Notes under the pieces: generated by a model | What the model was told of the DNA's origin: nothing | Databases searched by the model: none | Seen by the model: only the letters and a program-made list of their open reading frames with translations | Made by a program: the position numbers and the translations under genes | From: Coptis chinensis | Taxonomy: Eukaryota > Streptophyta > Magnoliopsida > Ranunculales > Ranunculaceae | Assembly: GCA_015680905.1 (NCBI GenBank) | Contig: CM027384.1 | Coordinates: 64,797,001-64,861,000, forward strand | Direction of reading: 5' to 3' | Length of the DNA stretch: 64,000 nt | In this document: positions 24,100-52,276 of the stretch, in pieces | How positions within the stretch are numbered: the first letter of the stretch is position 1 | How the letters are laid out: the number at the start of each line of letters is the position of its first letter

Positions 24100-24205
24100 A
24101 ATACAATACAATTAGTCAATTAGTGTCTCCCGCTACCGTGTATAACCACACGTCATCTGAGTCCTTGTATGCCTCAACTTCATCTATTCTACCTAATGTC
24201 AAGGC
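24100..24205 (-). pseudogene. Putative 3' end of the split FLA gene
   Basis: Minus-strand sequence here continues from the FLA segment at 29820-30177 across the Copia B insertion, with matching flanks AAGGC/AGGGC. It stays open for about 30 codons (GRIDEVEAYKDSDDVWLYTV) in a frame shifted from the FAS1 part, then stops. I take it as former FLA C-terminal or downstream sequence; the assignment rests on position only. Confidence 0.4.
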
Positions 24206-24908
24206 TGTTGGGGTTTATACCAATACCAATCAATTCCCCCACTACACATATAATTTGTATTTGAACAATAACCACTCCAATCAACAATCTAAATATTCTC
24301 TACAACCAAACTAACATGTCAAACTCGCTGAACAACTATTAACAACAAATAATAATGTAAAGCAGTAAAAACAAATCACAACACAAAGATATACCGTGGT
24401 TCGGCCAATGGTGCCTACTTCCATAAGAGCTTGTCCTTTTATAAAGTGGAAAGGAAGATTATAATCACTCCTCGCAGTCTCTCACCTTACTAGATCACTT
24501 CTTTCTCTCTACAGGGTTGTATCTCCGTAAAGGTTATCTCTCAATCTTGATAGCTTTCAAGATTGGGTTTTCTCTGACGTCTGTGTTGTCTCTCGTGTGT
24601 TAGGCTTTGCCAAAAACCCAAACATATAGTGCCAAATTCATGGTTCCACAAAAATAGAATCCTGCCAAAATAGGCATGGGTGCGGGGAGCGCTTAGACTT
24701 GTCTTTGGCGGGCGCTGCACGCGCTCTTGCCTTGGATGATGTTCGATGTTCAGCGAGCGGCGGCGGCTTTGCCTTGGACAATGTCCAGGCACTTTAGCGG
24801 CTGGCGCTTCCGAATGGCGGTATGTGGAGGGCGGTTAATGCGCTCTTGTTTTTCCACACAAGCTGAACTGATTTCTCTCCTCTCCTCATGTGAGGGATAA
24901 CTCCAACA
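24206..24908 (-). repeat. 3' LTR of Copia B
   Basis: It aligns with 29083-29819 and with the Copia A LTRs. The GC-rich block (24680-24840) is shorter and rearranged relative to the 5' LTR. Confidence 0.9.
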
Positions 24909-24929
24909 ATCTCCCCCTCCCGAATAATG

Positions 24930-27540
24930 AGGGGGGATACCTCCATGCAATTTCCAAATCAACAGGAGGAGTCTGCTACCATTCCGGCAGTAGCACAACA
25001 AACATCAAACTTATCTTTTGGTAAGACTTTGATTATCATATCCGACCCATTCTTGTCAGTATGGATCTTCTCGATACACAAATGCTTGTCTCCGAGTACT
25101 TCTCTAATCCAATGATAACACACGTGTATGTTCTTGGATCTAGAATGGAAACTCGGATTCTTGCTCAAATGGATGGCGCTCTAACTGTAACATAGAATTA
25201 CAAACTGTTTTTGCTTTAGCCCTAGTTCGTCGAAGAACCTCTTCATCTATAGTATCTCTTTGCAATACTTAGTGGCTGCAATATACTCGGCTTCTGTAGT
25301 GGAGAGGACAACACACTTTTGCAACTTTGATTGCCAAGAAATTGTTCCCCCTGCAAAAGTAACCACATAACCGGAGGTGGACTTCATCTAGTCAACATCA
25401 CCTGCCATGCATGTTTGCATTAGTCTAGCCTTCAAGTAAGGGCTTACTTCCACCAAAGCACAAATACAATTTGGAAGTGCCCTTGAGATATCTCAATATC
25501 CACTTAACACCTTCCCAATGCTCCTTCCCCGAATTTGACAGAAATCGGCTTACAACACCAACGGCGAAAGCAATATCCGATCTCGTACACACCATTGCAT
25601 ACATCAAGTTGCCCACTGCGGATGCATAATGAATCTTTTCCATCTGACTCTGCTCATGCTTACCCTTTAGACACATCTTTTTGGTCATGCAGAACTGGCC
25701 ACCAAGCGGACAACTGACTGGCTTCGCTTGATCCATGTTGAATCTTTTTAACACCTTCTCAATGTAGCTTTCTTGAGAAAGCCACAACTTCCCACTCTTT
25801 CTGTCACGAGTGACCTACATCCCAAGTATCTGCTTTGCTTAACCCAAATCATTCATCTCAAAGGACTTACTCAAGTCTTTCTTCAGCTTGGATATCTTGT
25901 TAATGTTTGGGCCAACTATCAACATATCATCCACATACAACAAGAGTACTATGAAATCCCCATCTAGAAATCTCTGAACAAACACACAATGATCGGAAGC
26001 AAACTTCTTGTATCCTTGCTTCACCATAAATGAATCAAACTTTATGTACCACTATCTCGGTGCTTGCTTCAACCCATACAAGCTCTTTATCAGCTTGCAT
26101 ACTAGGTGCTCTTTGCCTTTGACCTCAAACCCCTCTGGCTGGTCCATGTAGACATTTTCTTCAAGGTCTCCATGAAGAAAAGTTGTCTTAATATCTAGCT
26201 GCTCAACCTTTAGGTTCATACTTGCGGTTATACCCAATATCACCCAGATAGAAGTCATCTTCACTACAGGAGAGAAAATCTCATCAAAGTCAATCCCTTT
26301 TCTTTAACTGAATCTATTCACAACAAGGTGAGCTTTGTGCCTTGGGTGAGGATTGTTCTCCTCATGCTTGACTTTATATATCCACTTATTCTTGAGAATT
26401 TTTCGTCCTTGCAGTTTCTTAACTAACTCACAAGTGTGATTCTTATGCAAAGAATCCATCTCGTCATGCATGGCCTTCAACCACTTCTCTTTGTCTGTAC
26501 CTTCAAGTGCCTCTTGATAGTACATAGGTTCTCCACCATTCAATAGTAGAACGTACGTATGTGGTGGATACCTGGTTGAAGTTAGTCTCTTTCTGTTTGA
26601 CCTCCTTGCCCCATCTACTGGTGCCTCAGGAGGATGCACTTATGCTTGCTCTAGTGGTGGTTCATGCACTTCATCTGCATCTTCTATACCAATAGGTTAT
26701 ATCCCATCATGAGCAATAGGATTCTTATAATGAGCTTCAAACTCATGGTTCTCTGTATTCTCAATGCCTTCTGCATGTTCCACAGTAGGAACTTCTAGTT
26801 TTGAATCAACAAGATCATTGGTGAAAGCCTATAGCTTCTCACCCTCCTCAAAGTCTGCTCGGTTTGGTCTTCCAAGAACACAACATCTCGACTTCGGATT
26901 ATCTTCTTGTTAATCGGATCATAGAGTTTGCAACCAATTTTTTTATCTCCATAACCCAGAAAAATGCACTGCTTAGCTTTGTCATCAAGCTTGAATCTCT
27001 CATCCTTCGGAATATGCACAAATGCTTTGCACCCAAATACCCTCAAGTATCCATAATCAACATCTCTACCTAACCATACTCTCCTGGATAATCACTATTT
27101 AGAGGCTTTGATGGTGATAGGTTGATCACATGTACGGCTGTACGCATTGCTTCTACCCAGTAGGTTGTAGGTAGCTTAGAGTGAGACAACATGTATCTCA
27201 TCCTCTTTACAATGGTATGGTTCATTCTCTCTGCTATTCCATTCTGTTGCGGTGTCTTAGGAACGGTCTACTCATGATGAATCCCATGACTCTGGCAATA
27301 CTCTTCAACAACTTCTTTGTCTCTCTTTTCACCATGCTATGGAATTTCTCAAACATGCCAAGTACTTCATCCTTGGTCTTCAGACTATATGCCCATACCT
27401 TTCTTGATGCATCATCAATGAAGGTCATGAAGTATAAAGCTCCCCCGTGAGACTTCACTTTTATAGGACCACATAAGTCTGTGTGCACTAGTTCAAGGAC
27501 ATTGTCCTTTTTGTGAGATAGGAATCTTTGGAAAGACACC
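24930..27540 (-). pseudogene. Copia B integrase, reverse transcriptase and RNase H remnant
   Basis: The integrase core (VHTDLCGPIKVKS, FIDDASRKVWAY) begins at 27540, with its C-terminal part (MRVFGCKAFVHIP, CIFLGYGD) to about 26800. Reverse transcriptase follows (WLKAMHDEMDSL near 26500, VEQLDIKTTFLHGDLEE and MDQPEGFEVKG near 26150, LLLYVDDMLIVG near 25930). RNase H comes last (25425-24950: YHWIREVLGDKHLC). A fossil with several breaks. Confidence 0.85.
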
Positions 27541-27548
27541 TTGTGTTA

Positions 27549-28961
27549 CTATCCTACCAAATAGTGAGCACATGTATTTAAATGTGTACCTTTAATGTCT
27601 CGCAAGGCCTTTTGCTTAGCAAGAACTTTCATCCCTTTTATGCCCATATGACATAGTCTCTTGTGCCACAGTTCGGAGGAAGCTTCTTCTTCTACCGCAT
27701 TCACTTCTTCTTTACACAAACTAGCCTGCATTTTGTAAAGAGAGCAAGTTTTCTTCCCTCTGGCTGCTACAATAGAACCTCTACTCAGTTTCCATACCCC
27801 GTTACCAAACGAGTTTACAAAGCCATCATCATCTAATTTCCCAGCTGAAATTCGGCTTAGCCGAATGTCAGGGACATGTCTTACATCCTTGAGTGTCAAG
27901 GTGTAGTCGACATTGGTTTCTACATGAATATCTCTAATGCCTATAATATTCGAGACACCACTGTTACCCATCTTCACTTCACTATATTCACCACAGCTGT
28001 AGGTAGTGAAGAATTTCCTATGCGGTGTGACGTGATAGGATGCTCCTGTATCTATCACCCACTCTGTATCCTGGCATGAGGTACTAAGATAGCACACACC
28101 ATAATCTGACATAATTCCCACTAGGTCGTCCACTAGTGCGGTAGTATCTCTGCCTGTGTTTCCGTTCCTCTGCACCATGTCTTCATGTACACAGTTATTC
28201 TTCTCATCCCTCTTCAGTGTTCTGCACTCATATATGAAGTGACCCTTGGTGGCACAATAATAACATTGCCTCTCTGCCTTAAGAGTTCTAGCTTCACCCA
28301 TAGATTTACTTCTGTCATCACCTCTAGAACGAGATGGTTTTCTATTTCTACATCTCCCCCGTTTCTCTGTGACAAGGGTCTCTAAGTGAGAGGAGCTACC
28401 TTTTGAACTCCTTCTAGTCTCCTCATTCAACAAAGACACAGTAGCCATCTCCATGGTAACGATTCTATCTTTAGCTGCTCCGTGTAAAGAGATTGCTAAC
28501 GTCTCCCAACTTTCGGGTAGAGAGCCTGATATAAATAAAGCCTCAACTTCGTCTCCCAAATTAATCTTCATCAAATGCATCTGATTGATGGTATTCTGTA
28601 CTTTGTTAAGATGCTCAGACATTGAAGAACCTTCTTGGTACTTCGTGTTGGCAAACTTCTTAACGACCAACACTTTGTTTCCACCCGACTTCCTCTCATA
28701 GTGGTATTCGAGTTTCTTCCACAAGCCAAAAGTTGTAGTCTCTTGGGATACATGGTGAAAGACACTGTCGTTAATCCACTGTCGAATGTACCCAATTGCT
28801 TTTCTGTCAAGCTTGCTCCACTCAGCCGCAGCAACCGTTTTCGATCTTTCTCCTCCATTCTCAATGGGTAGTGCCAAGTCCTTGCAATAAAGCAAGTTTT
28901 CCATCTTGGCTTTCCAAATGGTGTAGTTATTCCTATTCAGACTCGTCATGCGAGTGTTCAC
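27549..28961 (-). pseudogene. Copia B gag, protease start and gag-pre-integrase region
   Basis: A 470-codon open stretch: gag N-terminus (NNYTIWKAKMENLLYCKDL), UBN2-type core (MSEHLNKVQNTINQMHL), zinc knuckle (CYYCATKGHFIYEC), protease motif (WVIDTGASYHVTPH) and gag-pre-integrase (ELWHKRLCHMGIKGMKVL). It is the longest open piece of this family in the window. The element as a whole is not intact. Confidence 0.85.
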
Positions 28962-29070
28962 AAAATTGTCCTTCTCTACAAGTTATTTAAACTCAAATCT
29001 TCTCTCAGGAGTTTTGTCAAACACCTTCCGACCAAGATTTGGATAATACGCTAGGCTAATCTAACCAAGG

Positions 29071-29082
29071 CTCTGATACCAC
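29071..29082 (-). other. Primer binding site of Copia B
   Basis: CTCTGATACCAC on the plus strand is the complement of the tRNA-Met-type site and lies against the inner edge of the 5' LTR. Confidence 0.85.
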
Positions 29083-29819
29083 TGTTAGGGTTTATACCAA
29101 TACCAATTGATTCCCCTACTATACAGATAACTTGTATTTGAACAATAACCACTCCAATCAACAATCTAAATATTCCCTACAACCAAACTAAAATACCCAA
29201 CTCACTACACAACTATTAACAACAGATAATAATGTATAGCAGTAAAAGCAAACCACAACGCAAAGATATACTGTGGTTCGACCAATGGTGTCTACTTTCA
29301 TAAGAGCTTGTCCTTTTATAAAGTGGGAAAGAAGATTACAATCACTCCTTGCAGTCTCTCACCTTACTAGATCACTCCTTTCTCTTTACAGGGTTGTATC
29401 TCTGTAAAGGTTACCTTTCAATCTTGATAGCTTTCAAGATTGGGTTTTCTCTGACTTCTGTGTTGTCTCTCGTGTGTTAGGTTTTGCCAAAAACCCAAAC
29501 ATATAGTGCCAAACTCGCAGTTCCGCAAAAATAGAATCCTGCCAAAATAGGCATGGGCGCGGGGCGCGCTTGGACTTGTGCTGAAATGGGTGCGGGGCGC
29601 GCTCTTGCCTTGGATAATGTCTAGGCACTTGAGCGCGTGGCGTGCTTCAGATTGGCTTGTGGAAGGCGTGTGGCGCGCTCTTGCTTTGGACGATGTCCAA
29701 GCACTTTAGCGCGGGGCGCGCTCCAGAATGGCTTGTGGAGGGAGCGGTGCGCGCTCTTGCTTTACCACACAAGCTGAACTGATTTCTCTTCTCTCCTCAT
29801 GTGAGGGATAACTCCAACA
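29083..29819 (-). repeat. 5' LTR of Copia B with internal GC-rich repeats
   Basis: 737 bp. Between about 29550 and 29760 a unit containing GCGCGCTCTTGC(C/T)TTGGA, then GCACTTNAGCGCG, occurs about three times, making this part a local GC-rich repeat array within the LTR. Confidence 0.9.
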
Positions 29820-30177
29820 AGGGCTGGCACTGGGAAAACTCCACCACTTCTTCCATCAAATACTGAATGTGGAAACGACAAGAAAATACTGTGGACTACA
29901 ATCTTGAGATTATAAACCACATCAACCATTTTAATAGTTGCATGATTGATCCTAATCATCTGACCAATAGTACCATTTCCACCTGTGGTTACCATCAAAC
30001 TTTGACCAGGATCAAGAGTTGGTAAAGTGGTCCCAGTTGGTAACCTCATTAAATCATAGCTCAACATCATCTAATTAGGAACAATATGGAAACAGAAGTT
30101 ACTCAAATAAGCATGACCAGCTGAGAAGATGGATGCATGACCACCTGAGAAGATGGATGCATGACCCCTGAGAAGAT
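29820..30177 (-). pseudogene. Split FLA gene: second FAS1 domain (C-terminal part)
   Basis: The minus-strand reading starts with three degenerate copies of a HASIFSGG-like unit. It then gives YLSNFCFHIVPN, a stop, and MMLSYDLMRLPTGTTLPTLDPGQSL. VTTGGNGTIGQMIRIN and MVDVVYNLKIVVHSIF follow. The last two match the conserved H2 region and beta strand of fasciclin domains (the GV-x-I-x-x-x-D-V-x-x-x-x-x-x-VHGI pattern). It is bounded by the solo LTR at 30178 and Copia B at 29819. With the pieces at 31690-31983 and 50142-50844 it makes up one two-domain FLA19/20/21-like gene. Confidence 0.75.
30112..30177. repeat. Minisatellite of 22-24-bp units at the solo LTR insertion site
   Basis: The unit CTGAGAAGATGGATGCATGA occurs three times in tandem, the last copy cut by the solo LTR. 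The continuation AAGATGGATGCATCATCC follows the LTR at 31690. In the gene this is an expansion of an Asp-Ala-Ser-Ile-Phe coding unit. Confidence 0.85.
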
Positions 30178-31689
30178 TGATAAGCTCCAAAAACTGTAAT
30201 ATGAAACCCCATTGAGACATATAAATTTGGTTAATTATGTGTTTAATAATCATGAAATAAATATATTTTCATACTTTTGCAGGTATTCGCAGTAAACATG
30301 AAAATATTGGTTAAACCTGCGTTAAAGCACGGGGAACGACGTATATATGAATTCTTCCAAATCAGCCATGTAAAGCCCAACAAATCCGCACAGAAGCATC
30401 AAACTTCTGAAGCTCTTACCTTTTGAACCAGGATTCTGAATGTGACAAGTGAGCTGCTCAGACAATCGGGGCGATGAACTCTATGCACAGGCGTGAAGTT
30501 GTAAAATTGCCAAAAGACCGGATTGCCACTGGACTGCACATGGACCCACTATACGGGCCGGCAAGATTTGATGAGTCATCAATCATGGAGCATGTCAAGA
30601 CAAAAATGCCAAATTATTGGTGCAAAGTTGACACCTTGCATGTAATTAATTAGATTAGGTGTTAATAGTAAAAAAAAAAGGCCAGGTGTCACTTTGTTTT
30701 AATGTGGTGGATAAAAATGAAGTAAATGTGGTTTGATGTTTCACGTGGGAGGAAATGAGATTTCTCTCAAATGGAGAAGAAAACAAAACAAGGGGGACAA
30801 TCCATTTACTCCCTTGACTTCTTTTCTTTTACCATGTATTATTTTAGTTCCTTAGCTTTAGTATTTTTTTTAGTTTTTGGTTTTGGAAAAAAAAAGCTTG
30901 TAATAGTTTTAATGGAGGAAACCTTGTGTTCCTCTTGAAAAATTCTCACTTCTTCATGCAAGTGAGTTTATAAATAGATAGTTTCTTCTTTTTGCTCTCT
31001 CTCTTTTTACATTCCACACTTGTTTTAGTTTTAGCCCAAGGATCATGAGCTAAACCTTCCCTTTGTGGGGAGTTAATAACACTCATGTGAGGGAAAAGTC
31101 TTGTTATTTGGTTTAGTAAATGTTAAGAAGAACAAGTAGGCCTACATCCTATCCCAAAATGATAGTTGGTGTAGAGTCTAGTTAGGGATCAAGTGATGAG
31201 CTTAGAGATAAATCATTACTTGGTTCCTTATGCTAGCATGTATGAGCTTAGAGATGAGTCATATTTGTTAGGGATCAAGTTTTCTTTTAGTAGAACTTGT
31301 CTATGAGTTCTAAGAAGATTTTAATGCACTTACTAAAATCAAATAACAAAAGTATCTTCACATGAGGAGAATTAACTCTCCACTTTTGTTTTAGTAAAAT
31401 TTTATTGCGTCTTAGTTGCATGATTTCGTAACTTAATATTTTTAATTTTTGTGTAGTAAAGAAACCAAATATTTAGTATTAATATAATCATATTTAAACT
31501 TACTCGTTAGTTCCCTAAAAGAGTAAAAACCAAGTTCTAAGTGGTCCTAGAATTTAGGTTGGTTCGAATCCTTACTCCAAACTATATGAACACGAAGATC
31601 GTGAGTAAGAAAAATCTTTGAATTCGCACTTTCGCCAAAGAAGATATTCAAATCTCTATCAAAGCAAAAGGCAAAATTTTTGAATATCA
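30178..31689 (+). mobile_element. Solo LTR in the FLA gene, same family as 2632-4495
   Basis: It begins TGATAAGCTCC and ends GAATATCA, with a perfect 5-bp duplication AAGAT (30173-30177 and 31690-31694). Its first 120 bases match the minus strand start of the solo LTR in Copia A (TGTAATAT, TTAATAATCATG, CTTTTGCAGGT). A TATA-like TTTATAAATAG lies near 30968. No coding capacity. Probably Ty3/Gypsy. Confidence 0.75.
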
Positions 31690-31983
31690 AAGATGGATGC
31701 ATCATCCAAAGCAAAAACAGTCATGTTTTGGAGATTCACTATTTCTGGATACTTGGCTTTCAATGCATGCTATAAAACACTGAACCCATTGTTATGAAGA
31801 CGAAGCATAACATTTTTCAACATCAATCTCATTAAAGCAGGAGAAGTGTTTTGAGGATTATTTGATGATTGTGATGAAGAAGAAATTGTAGTAGTTCGAT
31901 TGTTGTTGTTATCAGTTTATGTTGGAGGAGGAAACAAGAGTGAATTCATCCGTTCAATGTTACATGAAAACGGAGACAGAGGA
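31690..31983 (-). pseudogene. Split FLA gene: linker and start of second FAS1 domain
   Basis: The minus strand continues the first FAS1 piece (50142-50844) across Copia C: PFSCNIERMNSLLFPPPT, a stop, then a serine/threonine/asparagine-rich linker. ALMRLMLKNVMLRLHNNGFS follows, then a stop. Next is ALKAKYPEIVNLQNMTVFA, then LDDASIF, which is the H1 region of a FAS1 domain (the T-V-F-A-x-x-D pattern). The frame is kept across the insertion, so the stops are separate mutations. The cell-wall proteins of this family are secreted glycoproteins. Confidence 0.75.
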
Positions 31984-32588
31984 TGTAGAGAAAAAAGGGT
32001 GTTTTGTGCTTTTCTCGTGTAAGGCGCACCCTGCGCTTGGATTTGCTTGGCAAAGGGTGCAGATCGCGCTCATGCCTTGGTCGAACTCCAGAAGCTTCAG
32101 CGCACCCTGCGCTCCCTTTTGCTTGGACAAGGGCGCGGGTTGCGCTCCACCATATTTCAACACGAATTTGACTTATTTCGAAAGTTTTATGAAATAGTAT
32201 AAATATAGGTTTTTTCTGTAGAAACCTAACTTAACAAAAAACTAAGAAAGAGAGAGATTATAAGAGAGCAATTCTTTGTGAGTTGTGTGTTCATTCTTTG
32301 GGAGTGAATTGAGAGACTTGTAATCTGTTACTCCGGACATCAAGGAAAGCTTGGAACTCGCAGTGTGGACGTAGGCAAATTGCCGAACCACGATATATCT
32401 TTGTCTTGTGGTTTGTTCTCATTTACATTAATTGTTTTACTTTATATGCTTGCTATTTGATATTGAGAAGTGTTGGGATATTACTTGGAGGGTGTTGAAG
32501 TCTTGTCTAGTGAGAAAGATCGATCCTTGTGTAGGATTGATCTATTTGTTGTGGATAACGTTGTTTCCGCATTGCCCTATTAACAACA
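31984..32588 (+). repeat. 5' LTR of Copia C
   Basis: 605 bp. It has a GC-rich block (32020-32155) with CGCGCTCATGCCTTGG and a TATA box TATAAATA at 32198-32205. Its sequence family is different from the Copia A/B LTRs. Confidence 0.92.
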
Positions 32589-32590
32589 AT

Positions 32591-32602
32591 TGGTATCAGA
32601 GC
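32591..32602 (+). other. Primer binding site of Copia C
   Basis: TGGTATCAGAGC two bases past the LTR; complementary to initiator tRNA-Met as in most plant Copia elements. Confidence 0.9.
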
Positions 32603-33228
32603 CGATGGTTTGGCTGGGACAAACGACACAGATCATGTAGAATTTGAAGACGAAGTCATTCAAGGTGGAGCCGCCAATGATGGCGCAACTCAGATGGAGT
32701 TGCTTCCCTGTACACACTATGACGCTCTTAGAAGTCGTGGATGCTCGAGAGAGTGTACCCCGAGTGGAATCCAATGACATGGAGTGATCTTCGAGGTGGA
32801 GCTTGTCCTCTCGACACCTACAAAGTCTGGCATGATATTGTGCAATGGTGATGAACAAATGAAGATCCTTGGATTTTGGTTCAAGGTGGAGATTGTTGGG
32901 TATTGTGAAACTGAAATCTTATAGTCCCACATGGGAGAAGAAATGAGTTCATCATGGGTTGATAAAGTGGGAAGCTCACTAACTAGTACCGAGGCCTTTC
33001 CGGATAAAACCCCAGCCCAAGCCCAATGGGTGGTTAAGTGGGGGACAATATCGGTACTAAGTTATCCCATTGGCATAAGGCCTGAGGTCAGGCTGTATGC
33101 CAGTCCCTATCAAATCTGGGATTTTGAGTTTTGGTAGTGAACCATAGTGCTCGAAATTTGTGTAGACAAGGTGTTCGATAAAATTCCGAAGTGATATTGT
33201 TTTTGGGTTATTGTGTGTAACTTGAAAA
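32603..33228 (+). other. Long leader of Copia C with an extra repeat-like segment
   Basis: Over 600 bp separates the primer site from gag. The middle (about 32890-33150) contains TATAGTCCCACATGGGAG and sequence unlike the rest, resembling short dispersed plant repeats with a TCCCACAT motif. I see no coding region. Whether this is a normal leader or a small insertion is not clear from one copy. Confidence 0.5.
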
Positions 33229-34490
33229 ATGGCTCCCAATATGTCAAATGCTAAGTTTGAAGTAGAGAAATTTAATGGGAAAAATAACTTTGGGATTTGG
33301 AGAGTCCAAGTCAGGGACATCCTCATCCAACAAGGTTTGCATAAGGCCTTAAAGGGGAAACAAGCAAAGCCGGCGAATATGAGTGATGACGATTGGGCAG
33401 AGTTCGATCTATAGGCTTGTTCATCAATCCGGTTGTGTCTTGCTAATGAGGTCATGTATAGTGTGATGGGAGAAAATACCGCTGCCGGTATTTGGCTCAA
33501 GCTAGAGTCTATGTATATGACCAAGAGCATGACGAACAAGATGTACCTTAAGAAGCGTCTTTATCGGTATATGATGGTGGATGGTTCAACGATGCAAGAG
33601 CACGTTAGTGAGTTCTATCGATGCCTAGCAGATTATTTGAATGTTGGCATGCAGATGGATGATGAGAATCAAGCGGCATGTTTAATATTCTCTTTGCCTG
33701 AAAGCTATGAGCATCTAATGACCACATTTATGAACAGAGAAGATGTTGATCTTGAAGAAGTTCAAAGTGTGTTACTTTCTTATGACTTGATGAAAAAGAC
33801 AAGAGTTGAGAATAGCATTGATGCAGGTCAAGGGCTAGTGGCAAGAGGAAGGTCGCATGAAAAGGCTTCTACAAGCAATGAGAAGTCTAGGTCTAAGTCA
33901 AAGAAGCCTTTGACACATGTAAAGTGCTACAATTGTGATGAAAAGGGACATTACGCAAGTAATTGTCCTCACCCGAATAAAGAGAATAAGAGAGATGGTA
34001 AGAAGAAATGTAAGGCTAAAATTGAGGCAAGTTATGCTTCAGGCTCTAAAGGGGACGAGTTAAGTCTCTGTGTGTTCACACAAGACTATATGGCCGAAAG
34101 GCGGATTCTTGATTCCGGATGTTCCTACCATATGTGCCCGAATAGAAAGTGGTTTACTTCTTATGACAGCATTGATGGTGGTTCTATTTTGATGGGTAAT
34201 GACGTTGCTTGTAAAACGGTAGGGATTGGAACTATACGGGTCAAGATGCATGATGGTGTAGTGAGGACTTTAACTGATGTAAGGCATGTTCCTGAGCTAA
34301 AGAAAAACCTTATTTCTCTTGGTACTTTGGATTCCAAAGGCCACAAGTTTGTGGGCAAAGGTGGAGTCCTAAAGATTGTCAGTGGCTCTTTAGTAATAAT
34401 GAAGGGTCAAAGACATGGAACCTTGTATACTTTGACAGGTAGTACGGTGATAGACGATGTAGCAGTGGTTGCATGTAGTGATATATGATT
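33229..34490 (+). pseudogene. Copia C gag and protease region
   Basis: The Tork-type gag start (EVEKFNGKNNFGIWRVQVRD), a long UBN2-type core (MYLKKRLYRYMM, MQEHVSEFYRCL), a zinc knuckle (CYNCDEKGHYASNC) and a protease region (RILDSGCSYHMCPN) are seen, then ADVRHVPELKKNLIS-like sequence. A fossil with few breaks in this part. Confidence 0.88.
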
Positions 34491-39245: not shown

Positions 39246-39857
39246 TTTACAGTCACTTTCGTAATCCTTGTATAGAAGATCTACAGAATACATAAAAGGA
39301 AAATAACACTAATAATAACAACTGGAACAGTAAAAAAAAACTAAAGATTTTATTACCTCTGCTTTCCTTGCCGATGTCCGCGTAAATACGTGCACTTGTA
39401 AACTAAGAGGTGATCTTCTTGTGTTAGTGTGTGACTTGTGTTAGTGTGAATCACGAGATCTAAGAAGAAGGAAAAGAAATAAAACCGAAAGCCGGAAGTT
39501 AGAAATAGAAAAAATATTTATGACGATTATTCTAGAAGATATGACTTACAAAGAACTTATCAAATAATCCCTTCAATATAGTTTCTAGAAGATATGACTT
39601 ACAAAGAACTGATCAAATTTTGTTTCTAGGGTTTTCTTTTTCTTTTTTCATCCAAATTAAAGAGTTGCGGTCTCTAATGAGTCTTGTTATCCCCATATAT
39701 TGAGGTCTTTTGATCATATAGCGTTTTAGTGATTGATAGTATTTTGAATTATGATTGATATACCATTAAATTTTTTCTTGGTATTTAGCAGTTGCTAGCT
39801 TGAACTTGTGCTTCTTGCTAATATTATATTTAGTTCTCATTCTTTTGTATATTAGGA
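39246..39857. other. CACTA 5' intron/leader, non-coding
   Basis: AT-rich again after the mitochondria-like block. It holds a 45-bp direct repeat (TTCTAGAAGATATGACTTAC at 39529 and 39582) and precedes the transposase ATG at 39858, with the acceptor-like TATATTAG just before it. Confidence 0.5.
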
Positions 39858-42800
39858 ATGTCTTTAGTACCCCCAAACAGGGCATGGATGAAAGCACCTC
39901 AAGCTTCTACGGAATATCTTGATGGTGTCATATCGTTCCTCACATTTGCTCAAAACAGACCGGGAAACGATGGATGGTACTGCTGCCCATGTGTAGCATG
40001 TCCTAATGTTAATGGGAAAAAGACTCTACATGAAGTCAGTGACCATCTAATCCGTCTTGGTATTGATGAGACATATACAACGTGGACTTTTCATGGTGAA
40101 CCATTGCCCACTAGTGGTATTAAAAAGGGGATTCCTAGCACTTCTTCAAGTGCAGCCCCTAGGATGGTTGATTTGGTTAATGATGCCCATATAGATCTCG
40201 AGTCATTAGATGATTGTATGGATGAACTTCGAGGTGGACGTGACACACAAAATGAAGAAGATATACATGGTAATGATTACTACAAAAAATTGAAGGAAGA
40301 TGCAGTACAACCTTTATACCCTTCGTGTGAAGATGGATTAACGAAACTTTTCGTGACAGTTGAGTTGATGAGTATGAAAGCTAGAAATAGATGGTCGGAC
40401 AATAGTTTCACGGAGTTGCTCCAAATGTTAAAAGCTATTTTGCCAAAGGAGAGCACTATACCTATTAACACCTATAATGCGAAAACACTGATCAAATCTT
40501 TGGGAATGGACTATGAGGTGATCCACGCGTGTTGTAATAATTGCAATCTATACTGGAAAGAGCATGCAACTAGGGAGTTTTGTCCAGTGTGTAAGGCAAG
40601 CAGATGGAAGTCAATTGTTCTTAGAAAGAAAGGGAACAAAATTCCATGGAAGGTGCTAAGGTACTTCCCATTAACACCAAGGCTGAAGAGATTATACACA
40701 ATACTGTGGATTGCAGAGAAAATGAGGTGGCATGCAAATTCAGTTGGAGATGAGGATTACATGCGCCATCCTGCTGATTCTTCTGCTTGGAAATCAGTTA
40801 ATCGTAAGTTGCCTGAATTTTCAAGTGAGCCCTTGCGCAATGTCCGCTAGGACTAGCTACGATTGGAATTTAATCCTTTTGGAATGAATAACAATTCTTA
40901 TAGTTGTTGGCCTGTCATGATGGTTCCATATAATCTTCCTCCCTCCTATTGTATGACTAGAGAATTTACAATGTTAACATTGTTAATCCCCGGAAAAACT
41001 AGCCCAGGAGATGACAGTGATGTGTATTTGCAACCATTGATTGAAGAGTTAACTGAATTGTGGAGAGTTGGAAGTCTAGCATATGATGCCTACGCTAAGA
41101 AAACATTTACTATGAAAGCTATTTTGCTATGGGCGATACATGATTTTCCAGCGTTGGGTCATCTCTCAGGTAGTAGAACAGGTGGAAAGTATGCTTATCC
41201 AGTTTGTAGTGTACATACCGACTCAATCAGACTATTACATGGGAAAAAGGAAGCATACATGGCAACCAGAAGATTCCTACCAGATGATCATGTGTTTAGG
41301 AGCCATGCAATTTAATGGAAAAGAAGAGCATAGAAAAAAGCCCAATCGTTTGACTGGTTCTGAGGTATTGATAAGGGTGGAAACATTTCCCACAGTGTAT
41401 GGAAAATTAAGCAAGAAAAGGAAAAGACCCGCACATGACGATGAAAATGGTTCATATGCATGGTCCAAGAAATCAAAATTATTTGACTTGTCGTATTGGG
41501 AGGTAAGTTTAAAATGTTTTGCATTACAAGTGTTATATATTATAATATATTAGGTATTTTAACATTTTCAGTTTTGTGTAAATGTAGGAGTTATTTATTC
41601 CACACAATGTGGACGTGATGCATACAGAAAAAAAATGTTGATGAACATCTCCTTGGGACAATCATGGGAACAAAAGAGAAGAATAAGGATGGTCTTGCAG
41701 CTCGCCTAGACCTTAAAGAAATGAAGATAAGGAAGAACTTGTGGCCTATCGAAGAGAATGGTAAGATTTTCTTGCCTAAAGCTCCATTAAACTTTGTCGA
41801 AATCGAAAAAAAGCAGTTGGTATGTCAAACTCTAGTTGATCCGAAAGTTCCTAAAGGGTATAGTTCAAACTGGAAACATCATGTGAATATGGAGGAGCTT
41901 CAACTCAAGAGCATGAATTCACATGATTACCACATCCTCATGCAACAATTGCTCCCAGTTTGCTAATGCATGCATACAAAAAGCATAAGCCTTTATGCGT
42001 CTTTGCTATCTTGCAATTGTCGCTATTCTTCAATGTCTTGTGCTCAAAAGTTATTCACCGTGAGGCGCTCGAGATCATGAAAAAAGCGTGTTGTGGAAAC
42101 TTTATGTGTGTTTGAAAAGTACTTCCCTCCTTCATTTTTTGTTCCCATGATACACCTTGTTGTGCACTTGGCGGAGGAGGCATTAACTAATGGACCTGTT
42201 CCATTTCGATGGATGTACCATTTTGAGCGGTATGTGATATATATATTTATCTCATTTTATGCTATTCATATATGAAATTATCGTGTCTATGATTTATTTT
42301 ATGTAACAGGATGATGAGAATATACAAAGGGAACGTGATGAATAAGACACATGTAGAAGGGTGTATCGCGGAACGGTACATTATGGAAGAATCAGTAAGA
42401 TATTGCATGGAGTACATGCCTAAATCGAGAAAAGGAAGCCATAAAAGAGGAAAGTTCACTACTAATAAAAAGGGGACAAGGTACATTTTGTCCAATTTGC
42501 AATACGAACAAGTGCGCAAATGGCTTTTGCAACATTGTCCTCAAAATGATGAATGGGAGGCATAAGTAAAATCTGATTTTTTTTCTTCATTACTTTCAAA
42601 TATTTGACATGTAAATTTATTCAAATCTAAAGTTGTTTAAATTACAGGAAGTTCCAGTTATACGTTGAACCCTATACATCTCATCCTTCTAGGGGTCGAC
42701 GTCGAAAAAGAAATGTAGCAACTGAAAAGCCATTGGAATACGTTCCTTGGTTAAGACAACAACTACAAAATCAGAAGATGACAACCTTGAAAAGGCTTGC

Positions 42801-43293
42801 TATGGGTCCGAGCTTTGATGCCAAGTCGTATGACAGATATGAGCACAATGGATACATGTTTTGTATTGCAGGGTCCGAAACGGCCAAGTCAACCCAAAAT
42901 AGTGGGGTTTCAATGAATGCTTTTACTAATTTTAGAGCAAGTGCGAAGGATCAGAACCTCGTGGAGAAACAAACTACTTATTACGGCATCATTAGGCAAA
43001 TACTTGAAGTGGATTACTCTGATTTCAAAGAAGTGTTCTATTGCGATTGGGTGCTGATTGGAGATAAAGTAAATGGATGTGTGGTTGATCCAGAAACAAA
43101 TTTAGTATTTGTTAACCTTGGGAAGTTCCAAGGAAAATATAAGGAAAATGACGAGCCATTTATTTGTGCATCTGAAGCTTCTCAAGTTTTCTATTGCAAG
43201 GATCCAACAAGGGACAATTGGTATGTTGTCTTGGATGCTCCAAAGAGGATGAATCAAGGTGTGGACGCGTTTGAGGATCCTTTGGTTTTTTAG
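39858..43293 (+). pseudogene. CACTA transposase, TNP2 type (TAD + TNP2 + DUF4218 + DUF4216), broken
   Basis: Domains in order: transposase-associated domain (NRAWMKAPQASTEYLDGV, CPCVACPNVNG, HEVSDHLIRLGI); TNP2 core (ATREFCPVCKASRWK, YSCWPVMMVPYNLPP, IPGKTSPGDDSDVYLQPLI and DVMHTEKNV with the conserved Asp). DUF4218 (VHLAEEALTNGPVPFRWMY, CIAERYIMEESVRYC) and DUF4216 (KQTTYYGIIRQILEVDYSDF, FYCKDPTRDNWYVVL) follow. Introns are visible, e.g. donor GTAAGT at 41503 and acceptor TGTAG at 41588. Frame changes occur near 40850-40870, 41308 and in the A-run at 41625-41632, and the stretch after QQLLPV (41965-42095) is disrupted. The enzyme cuts and moves CACTA elements; this copy cannot be active. Confidence 0.85.
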
Positions 43294-43582
43294 GCAAGAA
43301 TGAGTGAAGAGGAAATGATATCAGAATTAGTAAATGACATTGTGGAAGAAGTAGATACCACAGATGGTTCTTGGGTTTAGATTGTTTTTTTTTTTTGTTG
43401 TGTTTTTTGTTATTATTATTTTTTATATATATTTTCTGTTCTAAGTTTCTTTTGGAGGAATTGATTGTCAGAATTAGTAATAGTAAATGGATGTTTTGTT
43501 CTGAGCATGATATCAAGTTGAATTGCTATGTTTTGAGCATGATAGATATTAGGTATACATATCGCATCCAACATTTGATCAA

Positions 43583-45440
43583 ATGCTAATGTCGGAGGAG
43601 CAATCTAGCGAGCATGAGCATGAGCATGAGCCTGAGCCTGAGCCTGAGCCTAAGGGTGAGATTTTTAATATTTGGAAGTCTTATCACTCTAGTTTATTTT
43701 ATTTCTTATGTATGTGTATAATTAACAATCTACTATATTGTTATGTAGCCCCACCTCCTGTGAGAATAGAAGTTCAATTCAATGTTGATGGGAAGGCGGT
43801 TGGACCAAATGCAGCGAAATATGCTTCACGACTAGGGAAACTTACAAGGAAACATTGTCTTCCACACTACTCTGAATGGACCCTTGTTCCTGTAGAAGCG
43901 ATAAATCTTTTGTGGAATGGTATCTTGGTGAGTATGTTTTTCATTCGAAATTTTCATATATATATATATGGCTGATTTCTGAATCTGTTTTGGTAGAGCT
44001 GGTTCGATGTCCCAATAGAATATCGAAGCTAACAACTACACAAAGCAAATAACATGTGGAGAAATTGGAAGTCTAGTGTTCGGAAGCATTGTGACAAATA
44101 TGATACAATCTTAGAGAGAAAGCGGAATCGTAAAAGTGGGGAAGAGTGGGATCTATTTGTTGACATGGAGTCAACTGAGCTCGCATGCCTTCGTCGTGAA
44201 AGGGGGAAAGAAAATAGAGAAATGATGAAGAATCCACACACGACGGGTAGGCGAGGATTAGCAAGGACTGTAGAAGAAATGGTAAGTTATAGTCAAATAC
44301 TACTATGAATCCTTAAGGATGATCAATCAGGTATACTACAAATGCTTTAGCCCATTCTTTTTCTTTTGTTATTTCTTGGTCATAAATAAGCAGATTGCTT
44401 GTTTTGCTTGTCTACCATCCTTTTGTCCTTCCGTTAGTTGGGTAAGATCCAAGTTTTAACAATTAAACATATAGGTCACAGTTGTGGATATTAGGACATG
44501 TGCCTCTAGATGTTCTCCTTCATTCTCTAGTCGACAGATGCACTTAGATTCTGTGAGAGGTAAATATGACAAGAGGCCGGTCCTTATATGGGAGGTCCTT
44601 ATATGGAAGATGTCTGATTAGTAAACTAAAGCAAAGTAAAATATTCACTCACTGAGTTTTGATTAAACTACGGGTATTCTATGATCAGTTGTATTAAGTG
44701 TTGTTATGGAACAATTTTTGTTTTATTTTATCTTACTGAATTTCTGTTCGCAGAAGGATGCATTTTTGTATGAGCTAAAGGGATGATATATTCTTATTCA
44801 TAGGTTGTTAATGATCCTGCTAATCCCCCCCTCGAGTCGATATACTACGTCTTTGACTCATACTAGAAAGAATGGAACATTTGTTTTGAGAGGAAGTCGA
44901 CAAAAAATGGTATGAAATATATATTTACTATTCTTAGAGTCAAGAGAAGTAAGTTTAACTGATTTTACTTTTGTTCTCGCTTTACAGATAAAAATCAATG
45001 AAATTGTTGCTTGTGACCCGAGTAGCAAACATAAGGATTTGGACCATGACCCCATGTTAGAGGGTGTGTTTCTTGTTTAATATATACTTTTATATATTAA
45101 TTTTACAATTATTCTTCTAAAATTAATCCCAATGTGGGTAAAAATGAGTTTGTAGGTCTTTGGAAAGGATGGAAGGGGTCGAGTACTAGGCTTAGGTAGT
45201 GGTGTCTCCAAGACCACTCTTATGGCTGCAGCTCCTTATAAAAGGAAAGCCGAAGAAGCGGAGAGATCAAAGTTGGAATTCCAAAGCCAAATAGATGATT
45301 TGAAATAGCAAGTGATTGATGGGAAAAAGACACAAATGGAGATACAATCACAAGTGAATGCAATGCTCGCAATGCAAGGAATTAATGAAGGAGCACCAAC
45401 GCGAATCTCTACGAACTCTCCATCTGATCAGGTATTTGGT
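43583..45440 (+). pseudogene. CACTA second gene, Ptta/En-Spm (PF03004-like) protein, broken
   Basis: Exon-like pieces: a Glu-His/Glu-Pro repeat (43608-43650); PPPVRIEVQFNVDGKAVGPN and RLGKLTRKHCLPHYSEW (43745-43930); NNMWRNWKSSVRKHC and GEEWDLFVDMESTE to TGRRGLARTVEEM (44052-44280). Further pieces are ESIYYVFDSY near 44850 and FGKDGRGRVLGLGSGV (45157-45210), then a coiled-coil-like EEAERSKLEFQSQIDDL interrupted by a stop at about 45308. This is the usual layout of the plant Ptta-type protein (TNPA-like DNA-binding partner). Introns lie between the pieces. Confidence 0.8.
43608..43652 (+). repeat. Six-base coding microsatellite (GAGCAT / GAGCCT)n
   Basis: About seven units, first GAGCAT then GAGCCT, encode Glu-His and Glu-Pro pairs in the second CACTA gene. 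Confidence 0.9.
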
Positions 45441-45499
45441 TAAAATTAGTGTACCATTTTAACTTGTAAATTGCAAATCGTAAAGATGCTATCACTACA

Positions 45500-47150
45500 T
45501 AATCCCACATGAATAATTGGCTTACCGTTAATTATAGTTGGTTGCACATAGCTCAATTAATCTCTTCCTGCTGTTGTGTTCCCTATCACCTCAGCCCAAG
45601 TGCTTTTAGTGATGTTGTGTTCCCTTGCACATAGCTCATTCCAGGTAGGGTAGGCGGGAGACCAAACCACCTTTCCACTGTGTGTCGTTGGCCTGGATGA
45701 GTCTTCGGTCCCAGATTCCATCGCCGCGGCCATCTGGTTCAAGTGACCACTCGAAGGGCTGTTTTGTTTGAGTCATATCCGTGCGCAGAAAAATCCTTGT
45801 TCCTCTTCTTTGAACCCTGGCTGATTCGATAGCTGAGAAAGATCGACCACGATTGTAGTGGATTAGGCTCAAACCGGATGTTAGGTCTCGTCTGAGTCAT
45901 TCCCTGTGGTGTTTCTTAGCCGGCTACTCACTTAAGGGGAAAGCTACGACTGGCGTGACTTTACAAGTATAAGTTCCGTCAAGGAAGAGTCTGTTCTATT
46001 TTAGTAATTCTGAACCTACCCACCAAGTCGGTCGGGGCGGGGGGTTCAAAGTTGGGAACGAAAGTAGGACCTTCGCGGAGGTGACGCACGGCTCTATCGG
46101 TCCGTCCATTTGAGCCTTATTCCCATTCTTTTCTCCAAAAACGGGGTTCATTGGTGCTGCCATCTCTGCTAATCAACCCCTTCACTCTCTCCCACATCCG
46201 GGAATCCGAGCTGTTTTGGTATTCTTCGCCAGGGCAACCAACATGAATCAATAAATGCATTTTAGATTATATAATGAATCTGGTTTTGGAGGGCCGGACC
46301 TTTGAGAACTAATCCTTCTCTTGGGCACCGTGCATCGAAAAAAAAAGTACTTTATTGTCGAATCTGAAAGAAGGATTTCCTACCAACAGGGGATAGATGA
46401 ACTGAACTCAAGAGCAGTCCTTTCATTCAATGATTTATGGGTTTGAAGATGATGCTTGTCACATTCATGCGAAAGAACTTCACTCTGGCACGGGCTAGTC
46501 ATATTCATTCTCGTTCTCAATCTGCTTATAAATCTGAAATCTGAGACTCTCTCTGATCTAGAAAGGAAAGACAAAAAAGCAGTTCTTTCTGGAAGCTCTG
46601 CAGCCGAACCATCAGCGTTCATTGCATGCAGGTCATTTCACCAATGTGTTATAAGTCAAACCTTGCTTGCCCTCCACTGCTGCCATCTCTAACGTTGTTA
46701 TAAAAGTAGAGTCTTGGTCATCCTCCACTGCTGGAAGTTCTTCAGCATGGTTTAGAACAAGGTCTAAAGCCTCCTCCTTGATCTTACGGTCTTCTTGGTT
46801 TGTCCACCTCTCATCACTCGATTTCTTTAAGCTCGAGTCTTCTCCCCCGAATCTTTCCGGCAGATGGTTTAGAACAAGGTCTAAAGCTAGTCCATACCTC
46901 TTTTCTTGCTATTGTTTCAACTAGGCATATGGAGCAAAGCCAGACTTTATATTGCTCGATTGCTTTCGATCTTAGGGGAGATAATTACTTCTCATTCTTG
47001 TGGGAAGATACCACTCAAATGCACGATATCACCTTGGTTCGGTGGAGGAAGTTGTCACATTCACGAAGTTACTTGCAGCAGCATCAAGGACTTGAAAAGC
47101 AATATATCTTTCTAAGTGGTGCTGTAAATCCAAAATCTTTGAACTTGCAG
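45500..47150. other. Mitochondrial-DNA-like insertion, block 2 (putative NUMT)
   Basis: About 1.6 kb with the same non-nuclear look as block 1: balanced base content, GGTCGGGGCGGGGGGTTCAA-type stretches, and no long AT tracts. A 25-bp motif, GATGGTTTAGAACAAGGTCT and the next AAAGC, occurs near 46745 (with one base different) and at 46863. No gene recognised with certainty. It starts where CACTA intron sequence ends (about 45500-45560) and fades into AT-rich DNA near 47150. Confidence 0.45.
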
Positions 47151-47721
47151 TAGCTTTTTATTGCATGCTAGGGGCCGTAGTGTGCTTGTTAGGAACTGGT
47201 TGGTTTACATGTGGACCCAAAACGAAATATAAAGTAAACTTGCAAAGTAACTGTTACCTAGGAACATAAATGATCCAGTTGACAAATAAGCCACAACTTT
47301 AAAGTTGTACTTGTGAATTGAGGTCAGTGATGCGATAAAAAAATATTAGGAACTCTTAAAACTGAATGCTATCAAAAACGAAAAGAGCTTCAGATGACAA
47401 TTTTTTTAAAATTATAAAATGTACTTCATCCTTTCTTCCTAGCTTGATGAAAGAATAATATTATTATGTTGTTTTAACATAGATAATAACAACCAACCAA
47501 CCAACCACTAGTTCTAGCCTACTAATATTTTTAGTAATGCTTGCTTTTTCTATATTATCCTTTACCAAAGTCTAAAGTACTTAAAAGATTTTGTAACGGT
47601 AGCTGTTTCTAGTTAATCCAATGGTTGGTTTGATGTTTTGAACTTCTTAGATTGGACTTTGTCAGCAGTAAGTCTAACTATGCTTCCGCGCTGGTATAAA
47701 TTACATTTAGTCATTTACCGA
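47151..47721. other. AT-rich segment between mitochondria-like block 2 and Copia C; unassigned
   Basis: It should hold the CACTA 3' subterminal region but shows no GCCGTCG-type repeats and no CACTA terminus. It contains a short (AACC)n run at 47492-47507. Origin unknown. Confidence 0.5.
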
Positions 47722-49480
47722 TCTGATGCAGCAGATGACTGGTTGGTTCATGATGAGGTACCAAATCATGGAACCACACAGCAACAGGAAGAAGAGCATG
47801 AACATCCGCAACTTGTAGTGGCTGACCCTAGGCCAAAGAGACAAGTTAAAGAAGTGTACAAGTATGGGCACGAGAAGCCTGTAAAACACTATGGTTAGGT
47901 GGATTTAGTGGCATATGCACTGAATATCGAAGATGATGAGCCAGATAGCTTCAAGGAAGCTATTAGAGATGTTCATTATAGAGATTGGTTGGTTGCTATG
48001 CAAGAAGAGATGGAGTCTCTTGATAAAAATCACATATGGGACCTAGTATTATTGGCAAAGGGCAAAAGGACTATCGGCAGTAAATGGGTGTTCAGAAAGA
48101 AAGAGGTCCTTCCTGAGTCCGACAGTACTGGGTACAAGGCAAGAGTGGTAGCAAAGTGTTTCTCACAAAAGGAAGGAGTCGACTACAATGAGGTATTTTC
48201 CCCGGTGGTCAAACATACTTCCATTCGTGTGTTATTGAGTTTAGTTGCTCACTTCGACTTGGAGTTAGAGCAACTTGATGTGAAAACTGTTTTCTTGCAT
48301 AGGGACTTGGAGGAAGAGATCTATATGAGACAACCTGAAGGGTTTGTTATTGCTGAGAAAGAAGATCATGTATGCAAATTGAATCAGTCAATGTATGGGT
48401 TAAAGCAATCACCTAGGCAATGGTACAAGCGCTTTGACACATTCATGATGCAACATGAGTACACCTAAAGTAAGTATGACTGTTGTGTCTACTTTTGTAG
48501 GCTTGCTTCGTGGTAATGATTTCATCTATCTCCTGCTTTATGTAGATGACATGCTTATTGCTTCCAAAAGCATGGTGGAGATAGCAAGTTGAAATCTTAA
48601 CTTAGCTCTGAGTTTGAGATGAAAGACTTAGGTGGAGCCAAGAAGATACTGGGCATGGTCAGAGATTGACAGAAATAGAAAGAAATGACGGATAGTTGTA
48701 TCTCATAAGAAATACCTTCAGAAAGTAATTTCTCGTTTTGGTATGGAGAATGCAAAGTCAGTTTCTACTCCTTTGGCTGGGCATTTTAGGCTTTCAGCTA
48801 AGTTCTCTCCTAGTTCGGTGGAGGAACAAAAGCATATGGCTAATGTTCTTTATGTAAGTGTCGTAGGTAGTTTGATGTATGTTATGGTGTGCACATGCCC
48901 AGACATTTCACAGGTAGTTAGTGTTGTAAGCAGGTATATGGCAAATCCTGGGAAGTAGCATTGGGAGGCAGTGAAATGGGTACTAAGGTACTTGAAGGGT
49001 ACCTTGGATGTGGGATTAGTTTATGGTAGAGGCACTTGTTATGTCAGTAGGTATGTGGATTCAGATTATGCAGGTGATCTAGATAGACAACGATCGACTA
49101 CTGGTTATGTGTTTATGATGCATGGTGCACCGGTTAGTTGGAGGTCTATGCTACAGGCTACAATTGCTCTATCTACTACTGAGGCAGAATATATGGCAGT
49201 GGCAGAGGCAGTTAAAGAGGCACTATGGCTTCGAGGTCTTCTGGATGATATGGGTATTAAGCAAAACAGTGTTGCTTTGTATTGTGATAGTCAGAGTGCT
49301 ATTCATTTGGCGAAGAACCAGGTTCATCATGCTCGAACCAAGCATATTGATGTCCGTTATCACTTTATACGGGATGTCATTGATGATGGTGATGTAGCAC
49401 TTGAAAAAGTGGACACCCATGACAATCCTACATGCTTGAAAGAGCCCTTTGTGGGCATGGCCATACGGGGCAGTTGACTG
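47722..49480 (+). pseudogene. Copia C reverse transcriptase and RNase H region
   Basis: It begins ADDWLVHDEVPNHG and continues with WLVAMQEEMESLDKNHIWDL, the reverse transcriptase core (ARVVAKCFSQKEGVDYNEVF, LEQLDVKTVFLHRDLEEEIY and LLYVDDMLI) and VSTPLAGHFRLS. RNase H follows (YVDSDYAGDLDRQRSTTGY, ALSTTEAEYMAVAEAVKE, LYCDSQSAIHLAKN, TKHIDVRYHFIRD). A fossil with several breaks. Confidence 0.9.
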
Positions 49481-49555
49481 TGAGTCTTCCTTGCTGGATG
49501 TATTCGACTAGGTTTTATGTGTTAAAACCTCACCGAGGTGGAGAATGTAGAGAAA

Positions 49556-50141
49556 AAAGTGTGTTTTTTGCTTTTCTCGTGTAAGGCGCACCCTGCGCTT
49601 GGATTTGCTTAGCAAAGGGCGCGGGTCGCGCTCATGCCTTGGTCGAACTCCAGAAGCTTCAGCGCTCCTTTTTGCTTGGACAAGGGCGCAGGTTGCGCTC
49701 CACCATATTTCAGCACGAATTTGACTTATTTCGGAAGTTTTCTGAAATAGTATAAATATAGATTTTTTCTGTAGAAACCTAACTTAACAAAAAACCAAGA
49801 AAGAGAGAAATTATAAGAGAGCAATTATTTGTGAGTTGAGTGTTCATTCTTTGTGAGTGAATTGAGAGACCTGTAATCTGTTACTTCGGACATCAAGGAA
49901 AGCTTGGAACTCGCAGTGTGGGCATAGGCAAATTACCGAACCACGATATATCTTTGTCTTATGGTTTGTTCTCCTTTACATTAATTGTTTTACTTTATAT
50001 GCTTGCTATTTGATATTGAGAAGTGTTAGGATATTACTTGGAGGGTGTTGAAGTCTTGTCTAGTGAGAATGATCGATCCTTGTGTAGGATTGATTTATTT
50101 GTTGTGGATAACGTTGTTTCTGCATTGTCCTATTAACAACA
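49556..50141 (+). repeat. 3' LTR of Copia C
   Basis: 586 bp, matching 31984-32588 throughout. TATA box TATAAATA at 49751-49758. It is shorter than the 5' LTR mainly by one small gap in the GC-rich block. Confidence 0.92.
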
Positions 50142-50844
50142 GAGGAGAAATGAATCCTTCCAAACGGTGAACAACAACCAAACCATTGTTGAAGAAATCA
50201 GGATGTGTTATTTCAACACCACCAATATAAACAATCGTACTAGTATCATTATTTGATGAACTAGAAGAATCATGATTATTATTATTAGAGGTAACAATTA
50301 TACAACTACCAGAACTCATAGTTTCAAGTTTAGTACCAAAAGCAAGATTTCTCAAGTAATCATAAGAGAATATTCCCGAAACTATGTGCTCACGAAGGAT
50401 CTGCGGTACAGAACACGAACTGCTTACTAAACCGGAATCGATACATGACTGAATCAAATCATCTGTTGGTGCAAATACTGTTGAAGAACCATTCCATGTA
50501 TAGTAAGCGGAATCTGATAGTGATGGAACTGCTAAGCCTAGCGTTGTTAGTACCGACTCCAAATGAGCCATTGGTGATTACAATTCTTGAGTGTTACTAT
50601 TACCATTCGATGAAGAAGAATGGTGTTCAGTTGGTGCTGGTGAAAAATTAGTTGTAGTAGTAGCTGATGATGCATCACTGAGATTCTTTAAGAACTCTGA
50701 TGATGGCACCGATGAAGGACAAGAAGAAGAATCATTGATGGCTGTTGTTGATGATGAAGATTCATGGGATGAAATGTTGGTAATGACGGTGGTGAGTAAA
50801 GTGAGAATGGTGATGAGATGAAGAAGCAACTTGCTTATCACCAT
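50142..50844 (-). pseudogene. Split FLA gene: signal peptide, Ser/Thr linker and first FAS1 domain
   Basis: Fasciclin-like arabinogalactan proteins are secreted cell-wall/plasma-membrane glycoproteins. ATG at 50844 opens a typical signal peptide (KLLLHLITILTLLTTVI), then a Ser/Thr/Asn-rich region. One in-frame stop lies at about 50579 and the same frame continues. The FAS1 domain follows: SVLTTLGLAVP; TVFAPTDDLIQSCIDSG (H1); REHIVSGIFSYDYLRNL; a long Asn/Ser insertion; and VEITHPDFFNNGLVVVHRL (H2). Copia C cuts it after EGFISPL. The remainder lies at 31690-31983, 29820-30177 and perhaps 24100-24205. Two FAS1 domains and the length (about 1.4 kb without the insertions) suit the FLA19/20/21 group. 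Confidence 0.82.
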
Positions 50845-51890: not shown

Positions 51891-52276
51891 GTATGCCTCT
51901 GTCTTGTTTTTAGAGGAGCTTTAGTTAGAAGGATCACTATTAACATGAGTAATTATATATTTTAGTCTGGCAGTCACGTTCTTTCTTTCCAGAAGACTCA
52001 ATTCTTCTTTTCTAAGCTATGGAACCTGCAAACTAAAATAAATATCCTCCATATTTTGTCTAGATTGGTATATTTCTCCAATATATGAGTAGGTGTAGAA
52101 TCACACATCCAACCTTGTTGTTGCCTTATACATAATACTGATTCTGAGCATTGGGTTTATGCACTTTCAAACATGTGTTGTTGGGATATGCTTTCTTTTT
52201 GTTAGACTTTTAGTAATCATCAATTTTGTTATACTACTTTTTTCTATGTAAATTGATGTAATCAAGTGACATGGGT

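Follow-up and report, generated by a model that had tools for sequence, protein, structure and literature searches.

A fasciclin-like pseudogene of Coptis chinensis cut by several separate transposons

Plant pseudogenes disrupted by nested long terminal repeat (LTR) elements are a common kind of locus. A further example, a fasciclin-like (FLA) gene cut by several separate transposons, lies in a window of 64,000 bp of the Coptis chinensis genome (C8:64797001-64861000, the whole stretch of DNA analyzed). Like other transposon-disrupted plant pseudogenes, it shows LTR elements flanked by 5-bp duplications, nesting, a solo LTR, a Helitron at an A-T site and stop codons private to the copy. It stands out only in how many and how varied the elements in one small gene are, and in the insertion sites still empty in the same genome. 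With two-FAS1 FLA proteins the gene shares an N-terminal hydrophobic leader, a Ser/Thr/Pro-rich stretch, a FAS1 domain with a Pfam match and a second FAS1-like half, whereas the window copy differs in being a pseudogene and in a second FAS1 domain below the Pfam cut-off. In the part of the literature accessible to us, a search for fasciclin-like arabinogalactan together with retrotransposon and pseudogene turned up only small-RNA work.

The locus represents ordinary transposon-driven pseudogene decay, unusually well preserved. Very probably the gene was shredded by the Copia element D first and by the LTR elements B and C later, and decayed with little or no constraint. With four insertions (two Copia elements, a solo LTR and a Helitron) and a nested CACTA element in or near one gene, it offers a clear case study of gene death by transposons. 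Three of the insertion sites (B, C and, just upstream, A) are still empty in the same genome, and the available clocks are enough to order some of the events.

The gene and its sister copies

The genome searched comprises 935.6 Mb in 116 contigs and contains 27 FAS1-domain matches, one of which lies within host piece 1 of the window. Four paralogs of the window gene were compared, namely PA (C8:84.29 Mb), PB (C8:84.46 Mb), PC (C4:4.79 Mb) and PD (C8:30.74 Mb). PA and PB form a segmental duplication with 95.5% identity over about 20.8 kb. The host pieces are located on the minus strand, and target duplications are given in gene sense.

Piece 1 matches the Pfam FAS1 profile (PF02469) with 30.6 bits (cut-off 22). 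Its protein segment is 90% identical in PA, PB and PC and 71% identical in PD, which is more decayed. The hydrophobic N-terminal leader and the Pro/Ser stretch of this piece were recognized by eye only. Using the PC protein, piece 2 (86% identity, expectation value (E) 1.5e-44) and piece 3 (67% identity, E 9.1e-45) were found as well, and the search for piece 3 returned the same four loci together with short fragments elsewhere. In the DNA comparison all pieces are collinear with PA, PB, PC and PD, in the same order and on the same strand. The original prediction, made from the sequence of the window, had read the three pieces as one FLA gene. These collinear matches to the same four loci confirm it, and its positions for the three host pieces and three insertions were right to within a base.

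The parent family is a small duplicated FLA family, with a clear FAS1 domain and a second, weak one. The half of the PC protein which matches pieces 2 and 3 shows weak likeness to the FAS1 loci C8:71783281 (E 0.0016) and C7:34420911 (E 0.004). At E up to 1, PA gives two FAS1-like stretches and PC and PB one each. Against solved structures the PC protein gave two weak matches, to the Tll0220 protein (E 0.0014) and to CupS (E 0.0016).

Table 1. Features of the FLA locus in the window and of the PD insertion. Positions refer to the window unless a contig is named.
Feature	Position	Strand	Basis or remark
Host piece 1: start codon, signal-like N-terminus, Ser/Thr-rich linker, FAS1 domain 1	50142-50844	-	PF02469 match, paralogs
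Host piece 2: linker and start of FAS1 domain 2	31690-31983	-	PC protein match
Host piece 3: remainder of FAS1 domain 2	29820-30177	-	PC protein match, alignment
Host DNA beyond D, possibly last codons	24116-24205	-	frame open across D site to TGA; joined end without homolog elsewhere
In-frame stop TAA, private to window copy	50578-50580	-	alignment
In-frame stop TAA, private to window copy	31917-31919	-	alignment
In-frame stop TAG, private to window copy	31770-31772	-	alignment
In-frame stop TAG, private to window copy	30071-30073	-	alignment
Insertion A: Helitron, 9114 bp, 5' TC, 3' CTAG	51065-60178	+	A/TC...CTAG/T, without target duplication
Insertion B: Copia LTR retrotransposon, 18158 bp including nested CACTA	31984-50141	+	duplication TCCTC/TCCTC, domains, LTRs
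CACTA (En/Spm-type) element nested in B	35432-47700	+	left terminus CACTACACCAAATTGGCC; right end approximate
Insertion C: solo LTR, 1512 bp, TGATA...TATCA	30178-31689	.	duplication ATCTT/ATCTT, repeat family
Insertion D: Copia element, 5614 bp	24206-29819	-	duplication GCCCT/GCCTT, LTRs, domains
TATA-like box TATAAATA (presumed), 102 bp before ATG	50939-50946	-	motif
Upstream flank, cut off from gene by Helitron	60179-61277	-	60462-61277 92.7% identical (gaps counted) to PA
Downstream flank common to the C8:84 Mb copies (PA, PB)	19300-20265	-	sequence comparison
PD insertion	L027 (C8:30729500-30739499)		junctions near L027 1966 and 9162

The insertions and their empty sites

Three separate LTR insertions had been proposed, one for each gap in the gene. 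B, C and D are indeed separate, each with its own target duplication, and these agree with the proposal: perfect for B (GAGGA, in gene sense TCCTC) and for C (AAGAT, in gene sense ATCTT), with one change for D. The Helitron A was overlooked and is a fourth insertion. Paired LTRs are found in B and D, but C is only a solo LTR and B carries a nested CACTA element, so that only one of the three gaps is a simple LTR element. The suggested search for empty sites was run on paralogs within the same genome, standing in for orthologous sites of related species. The sites of B and C, and also of A, are empty there; none was found for D.

Insertion B contains its domains in Copia order. The gag and RVT_2 domains score above the Pfam cut-off; RNase H and the integrase core, the latter with 31.5 bits against a cut-off of 32.6, fall slightly short of it. 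The element has TG...CA termini and paired LTRs with a Kimura two-parameter (K2P) distance of 0.051. PC runs from piece 1 to piece 2 with a single TCCTC; in PA the site is different by one base. The CACTA element lies between the integrase and the reverse transcriptase of B and is marked by Transpos_assoc, Transposase_21 (E 2.2e-57) and DUF4216 domains. Its left terminus is likely at 35432 and the Copia frame picks up again near 47.7 kb; a right terminus was looked for in B and not found. The stretch 46000-46900 was considered as organelle-like DNA and rejected, as four other full-length matches on the large contigs C4, C7 and C8 mark it as repeat DNA.

Insertion C is a solo LTR: a single LTR stands between its target duplications, and full-like elements of the family exist elsewhere. 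PA, PC and PD run from piece 2 to piece 3 with a single ATCTT. Of 4766 candidates 40 were scored, and 38 of these are additional near-full-length members of the family. Five relatives were fetched with their flanks. L042 and L043 are solo LTRs, each with its own perfect 5-bp duplication, L045 and L046 continue into non-host sequence common to both, which would fit a position beside the interior of a full element, and L044 shows neither pattern. At a further locus (L052) two C-family copies lie 4.8 kb apart on the same strand.

Insertion D contains Retrotran_gag_2 (E 3.2e-30) and SH3_retrovirus (E 7.5e-30) domains and a weak RVT_2 match (19.4 bits, cut-off 31.6); among the frames scanned no integrase core was matched. 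Its LTR pair has TG...CA termini and a K2P distance of 0.144. A paired-LTR element at 226-6471 of the window (K2P 0.15) is related to D and apparently holds a C-type LTR end at 4341-4495.

Helitrons are characterized by a 5' TC, a 3' CTRR, a 3' hairpin and insertion between A and T without duplication. By its termini, hairpin and A-T site insertion A is such an element, 221 bp upstream of the start codon. The hairpin before its 3' end gave folding z values of -2.0 (9 of 200 shuffles as good) and -2.9 (2 of 200). Other copies of A start with TCAAA after an A in all five read at the 5' end, and the one copy read at the 3' end shows CTAG/T. In PA, PB and PC the element is absent and the sequence is continuous, with 51065 adjoining 60179; PD diverges and is uninformative. 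Five open frames of A were scanned and no Rep/helicase was found; one frame matches RNase H (RVT_3) and the others gave no match or one below the cut-off. Inside the element, at 52277-55490, a 650-bp direct repeat pair (K2P 0.039) surrounds a 231-bp inverted repeat.

Decay of the window copy and order of events

As we reconstruct it, D would have entered near the coding 3' end at about the time when the window copy split from its sisters. B would have followed between the two FAS1 domains, as would another LTR element in the second FAS1 domain, which would have been cut to the solo LTR C, presumably via LTR-LTR recombination. The CACTA element would have jumped into B, and the Helitron, undated, would have pushed the upstream region 9 kb off. 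Four stops and a frameshift would have accumulated under little or no constraint.

The four in-frame stops confirm the stops expected in the host pieces. The frameshift is one base missing at 30165-30168, within a 24-bp host unit; piece 3 begins with three copies of this unit, one of which lacks that base. None of the four other copies shares any of these stops or the frameshift. Copies two and three of the 24-bp unit hold the four bases preceding the target duplication of C; because the right flank could not have supplied these once C was inserted, the unit would have been triplicated before C arrived. Codon changes were counted in the window copy, PA, PC and PD at sites where the other three agree, PB being left out as nearly identical to PA. 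The own branch of the window copy has 15, 15 and 22 changes at codon positions 1, 2 and 3. Among the 49 classified changes 16 are synonymous and 33 are not, which gives a ratio of nonsynonymous to synonymous rates (dN/dS) of about 0.6 (P = 0.077 against neutrality). The synonymous counts are 9/15 in PC (P = 0.002), 8/41 in PA (P = 0.75) and 10/33 in PD (P = 0.21). Codon constraint on the window-copy branch thus appears weak or absent and is not distinguishable from neutral. The expectation that the gene had died before the insertions or decayed along with them fits the private stops and the near-even changes over codon positions, and any of the lesions may have been the one to kill the gene first.

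A gene already dead when the copy arose, or dying at once, with all insertions hitting junk, would explain the near-even changes too. This is a possibility to be taken seriously, if one that we hold to be the less probable course, and damage in the sister copies speaks for it: a frameshift is found in PB, the N-terminal frame of PC is shifted, and PD has stops together with its insertion. However, none of the four stops is shared with the other four copies, the synonymous share of the window copy is slightly high, and PC is constrained.

Transversions were used to order the insertions. Per lineage, the gene branch has 23/1069 (0.0215), D 28/1406 (0.0199) and B 8/1192 (0.0067). The ratio of B to D is 0.34 (95% 0.13-0.76) and that of D to the gene branch 0.93 (0.51-1.68). 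By transversions the age of D is thus close to that of the gene copy's own branch, and B is roughly a third as old. Compared with seven other copies, C has 34 own changes in 1451 sites, 10 of them transversions, so that its age resembles that of B per LTR, in a rougher estimate. D would thus have come before B and C, and decay would have gone on through most of the window copy's history. The transition/transversion ratio is 2.25 in the D LTRs and 2.62 in the B LTRs, compared with 0.56-0.86 in the host flanks against PA/PB and 29/23 = 1.26 on the gene's own branch. Because of this excess of transitions, raw LTR distances seem to overstate age. The rice clock of 1.3e-8 per site per year, uncalibrated for Coptis, would give about 1.9 million years for B and about 5.5 million years for D, the latter probably inflated by transitions. 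The idea that LTR ages date the insertions thus holds only partly: B and D have LTR pairs, but C has none and the raw distances seem too old.

Several observations weigh against our order of events or against a single gene. The raw LTR distance of D (0.144) exceeds the distances of the window-copy flanks to PA/PB (0.027-0.060), and its transversion distance (0.0415) is nominally above all four of these flanks (0.0306, 0.0319, 0.0388 and 0.0147). The LTR distance thus makes D older than the flanks allow, and transversions narrow this gap without closing it, which calls for caution. The gene-branch clock comes from coding sequence and may be partly constrained. No paralog shows an empty D site, and the joined D flanks match the genome twice, both times in the window itself. 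Three different 3' ends occur among the window copy, PA/PB and PC/PD. Finally, neither piece 2 nor piece 3 has a Pfam match by itself. The original prediction had named the lack of a FAS1 profile match as grounds for refutation; this came out literally, but the far stronger matches to the PC protein outweigh it.

D may predate the split from PA/PB, as its transversion distance suggests, or exchange between copies may have evened the flanks out. In the first case D would have been present in the common ancestor with PA/PB and lost there when a repeat tract replaced the 3' end, which would agree with the lack of a comparable 3' end in PA/PB. We consider this unlikely. The transversion ratio places D and the gene branch at about the same age, no remnant of D appeared in the parts of PA or PB that were set against the window, and flanks can look young after exchange between copies. 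A possible sign of such exchange is the disagreement over flank 19300-20265, whose distance is 0.060 to PA and 0.027 to PB, though PA and PB are 99.7% identical upstream.

It is very improbable that a short product is still made from the remnant of piece 1, an open reading frame of 158 codons (50095-50571). The frame of the FAS1-1 segment is open and the TATA-like box and start are still present, but an in-frame stop lies between the signal-bearing N-terminus and the FAS1 segment, the reading frame ends within the LTR of B and the Helitron displaces the region upstream of piece 1. An assembly of the pieces from at least two FLA paralogs by rearrangement, for which one could cite the missing FAS1 profile match of pieces 2 and 3 and the split of informative sites (window copy with PD 8, with PA 7, with PC 1), is hardly conceivable, as all pieces have the order and strand seen in every paralog and their ends come together over a single copy of the duplication at B and C, joins which already contradict it; nor did the pieces match different paralogs, the outcome that had been named as refuting a single gene.

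The 3' end of the family and further observations

The 3' end of the family was rearranged more than once. PC and PD have a common 3' tail, which has relatives at several further sites of the genome. The stretch 24100-24205, proposed as perhaps belonging to the gene, is host DNA beyond D; the final codons may lie in it, though the same end is seen in no relative. The stretch 20266-24051 may be an insertion in the window copy or a loss in PA/PB; the copy at C8:64.19 Mb has its first ~92 bases, and the stretch was therefore left out of the insertion count.

Three disruptions lie within about 120 bp near the end of FAS1 domain 2: D, the 7.2-kb insertion of PD and the repeat tract of PA/PB. The PD insertion, 7189 bp in the region of FAS1 domain 2, has a TTA duplication, inverted ends, a Plant_tran transposase and an open reading frame with a plant mobile domain match just below the cut-off; we take it to be PIF/Harbinger-like. 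That the 3' end is a preferred spot for insertion and end-swapping is doubtful; with five copies, chance may account for the pattern as well.

At L053 (C2:107.89 Mb) and L054 (C3:8.99 Mb) a 17-bp word is common with the end of piece 3 in a rearranged setting. At these two distant sites an FLA fragment stands beside the downstream flank in inverted order, like a copied rearranged unit. Scans of the window for tRNA genes and Rfam families gave no match. An exact 148-bp tandem duplication is located at 63421-63716 of the window.

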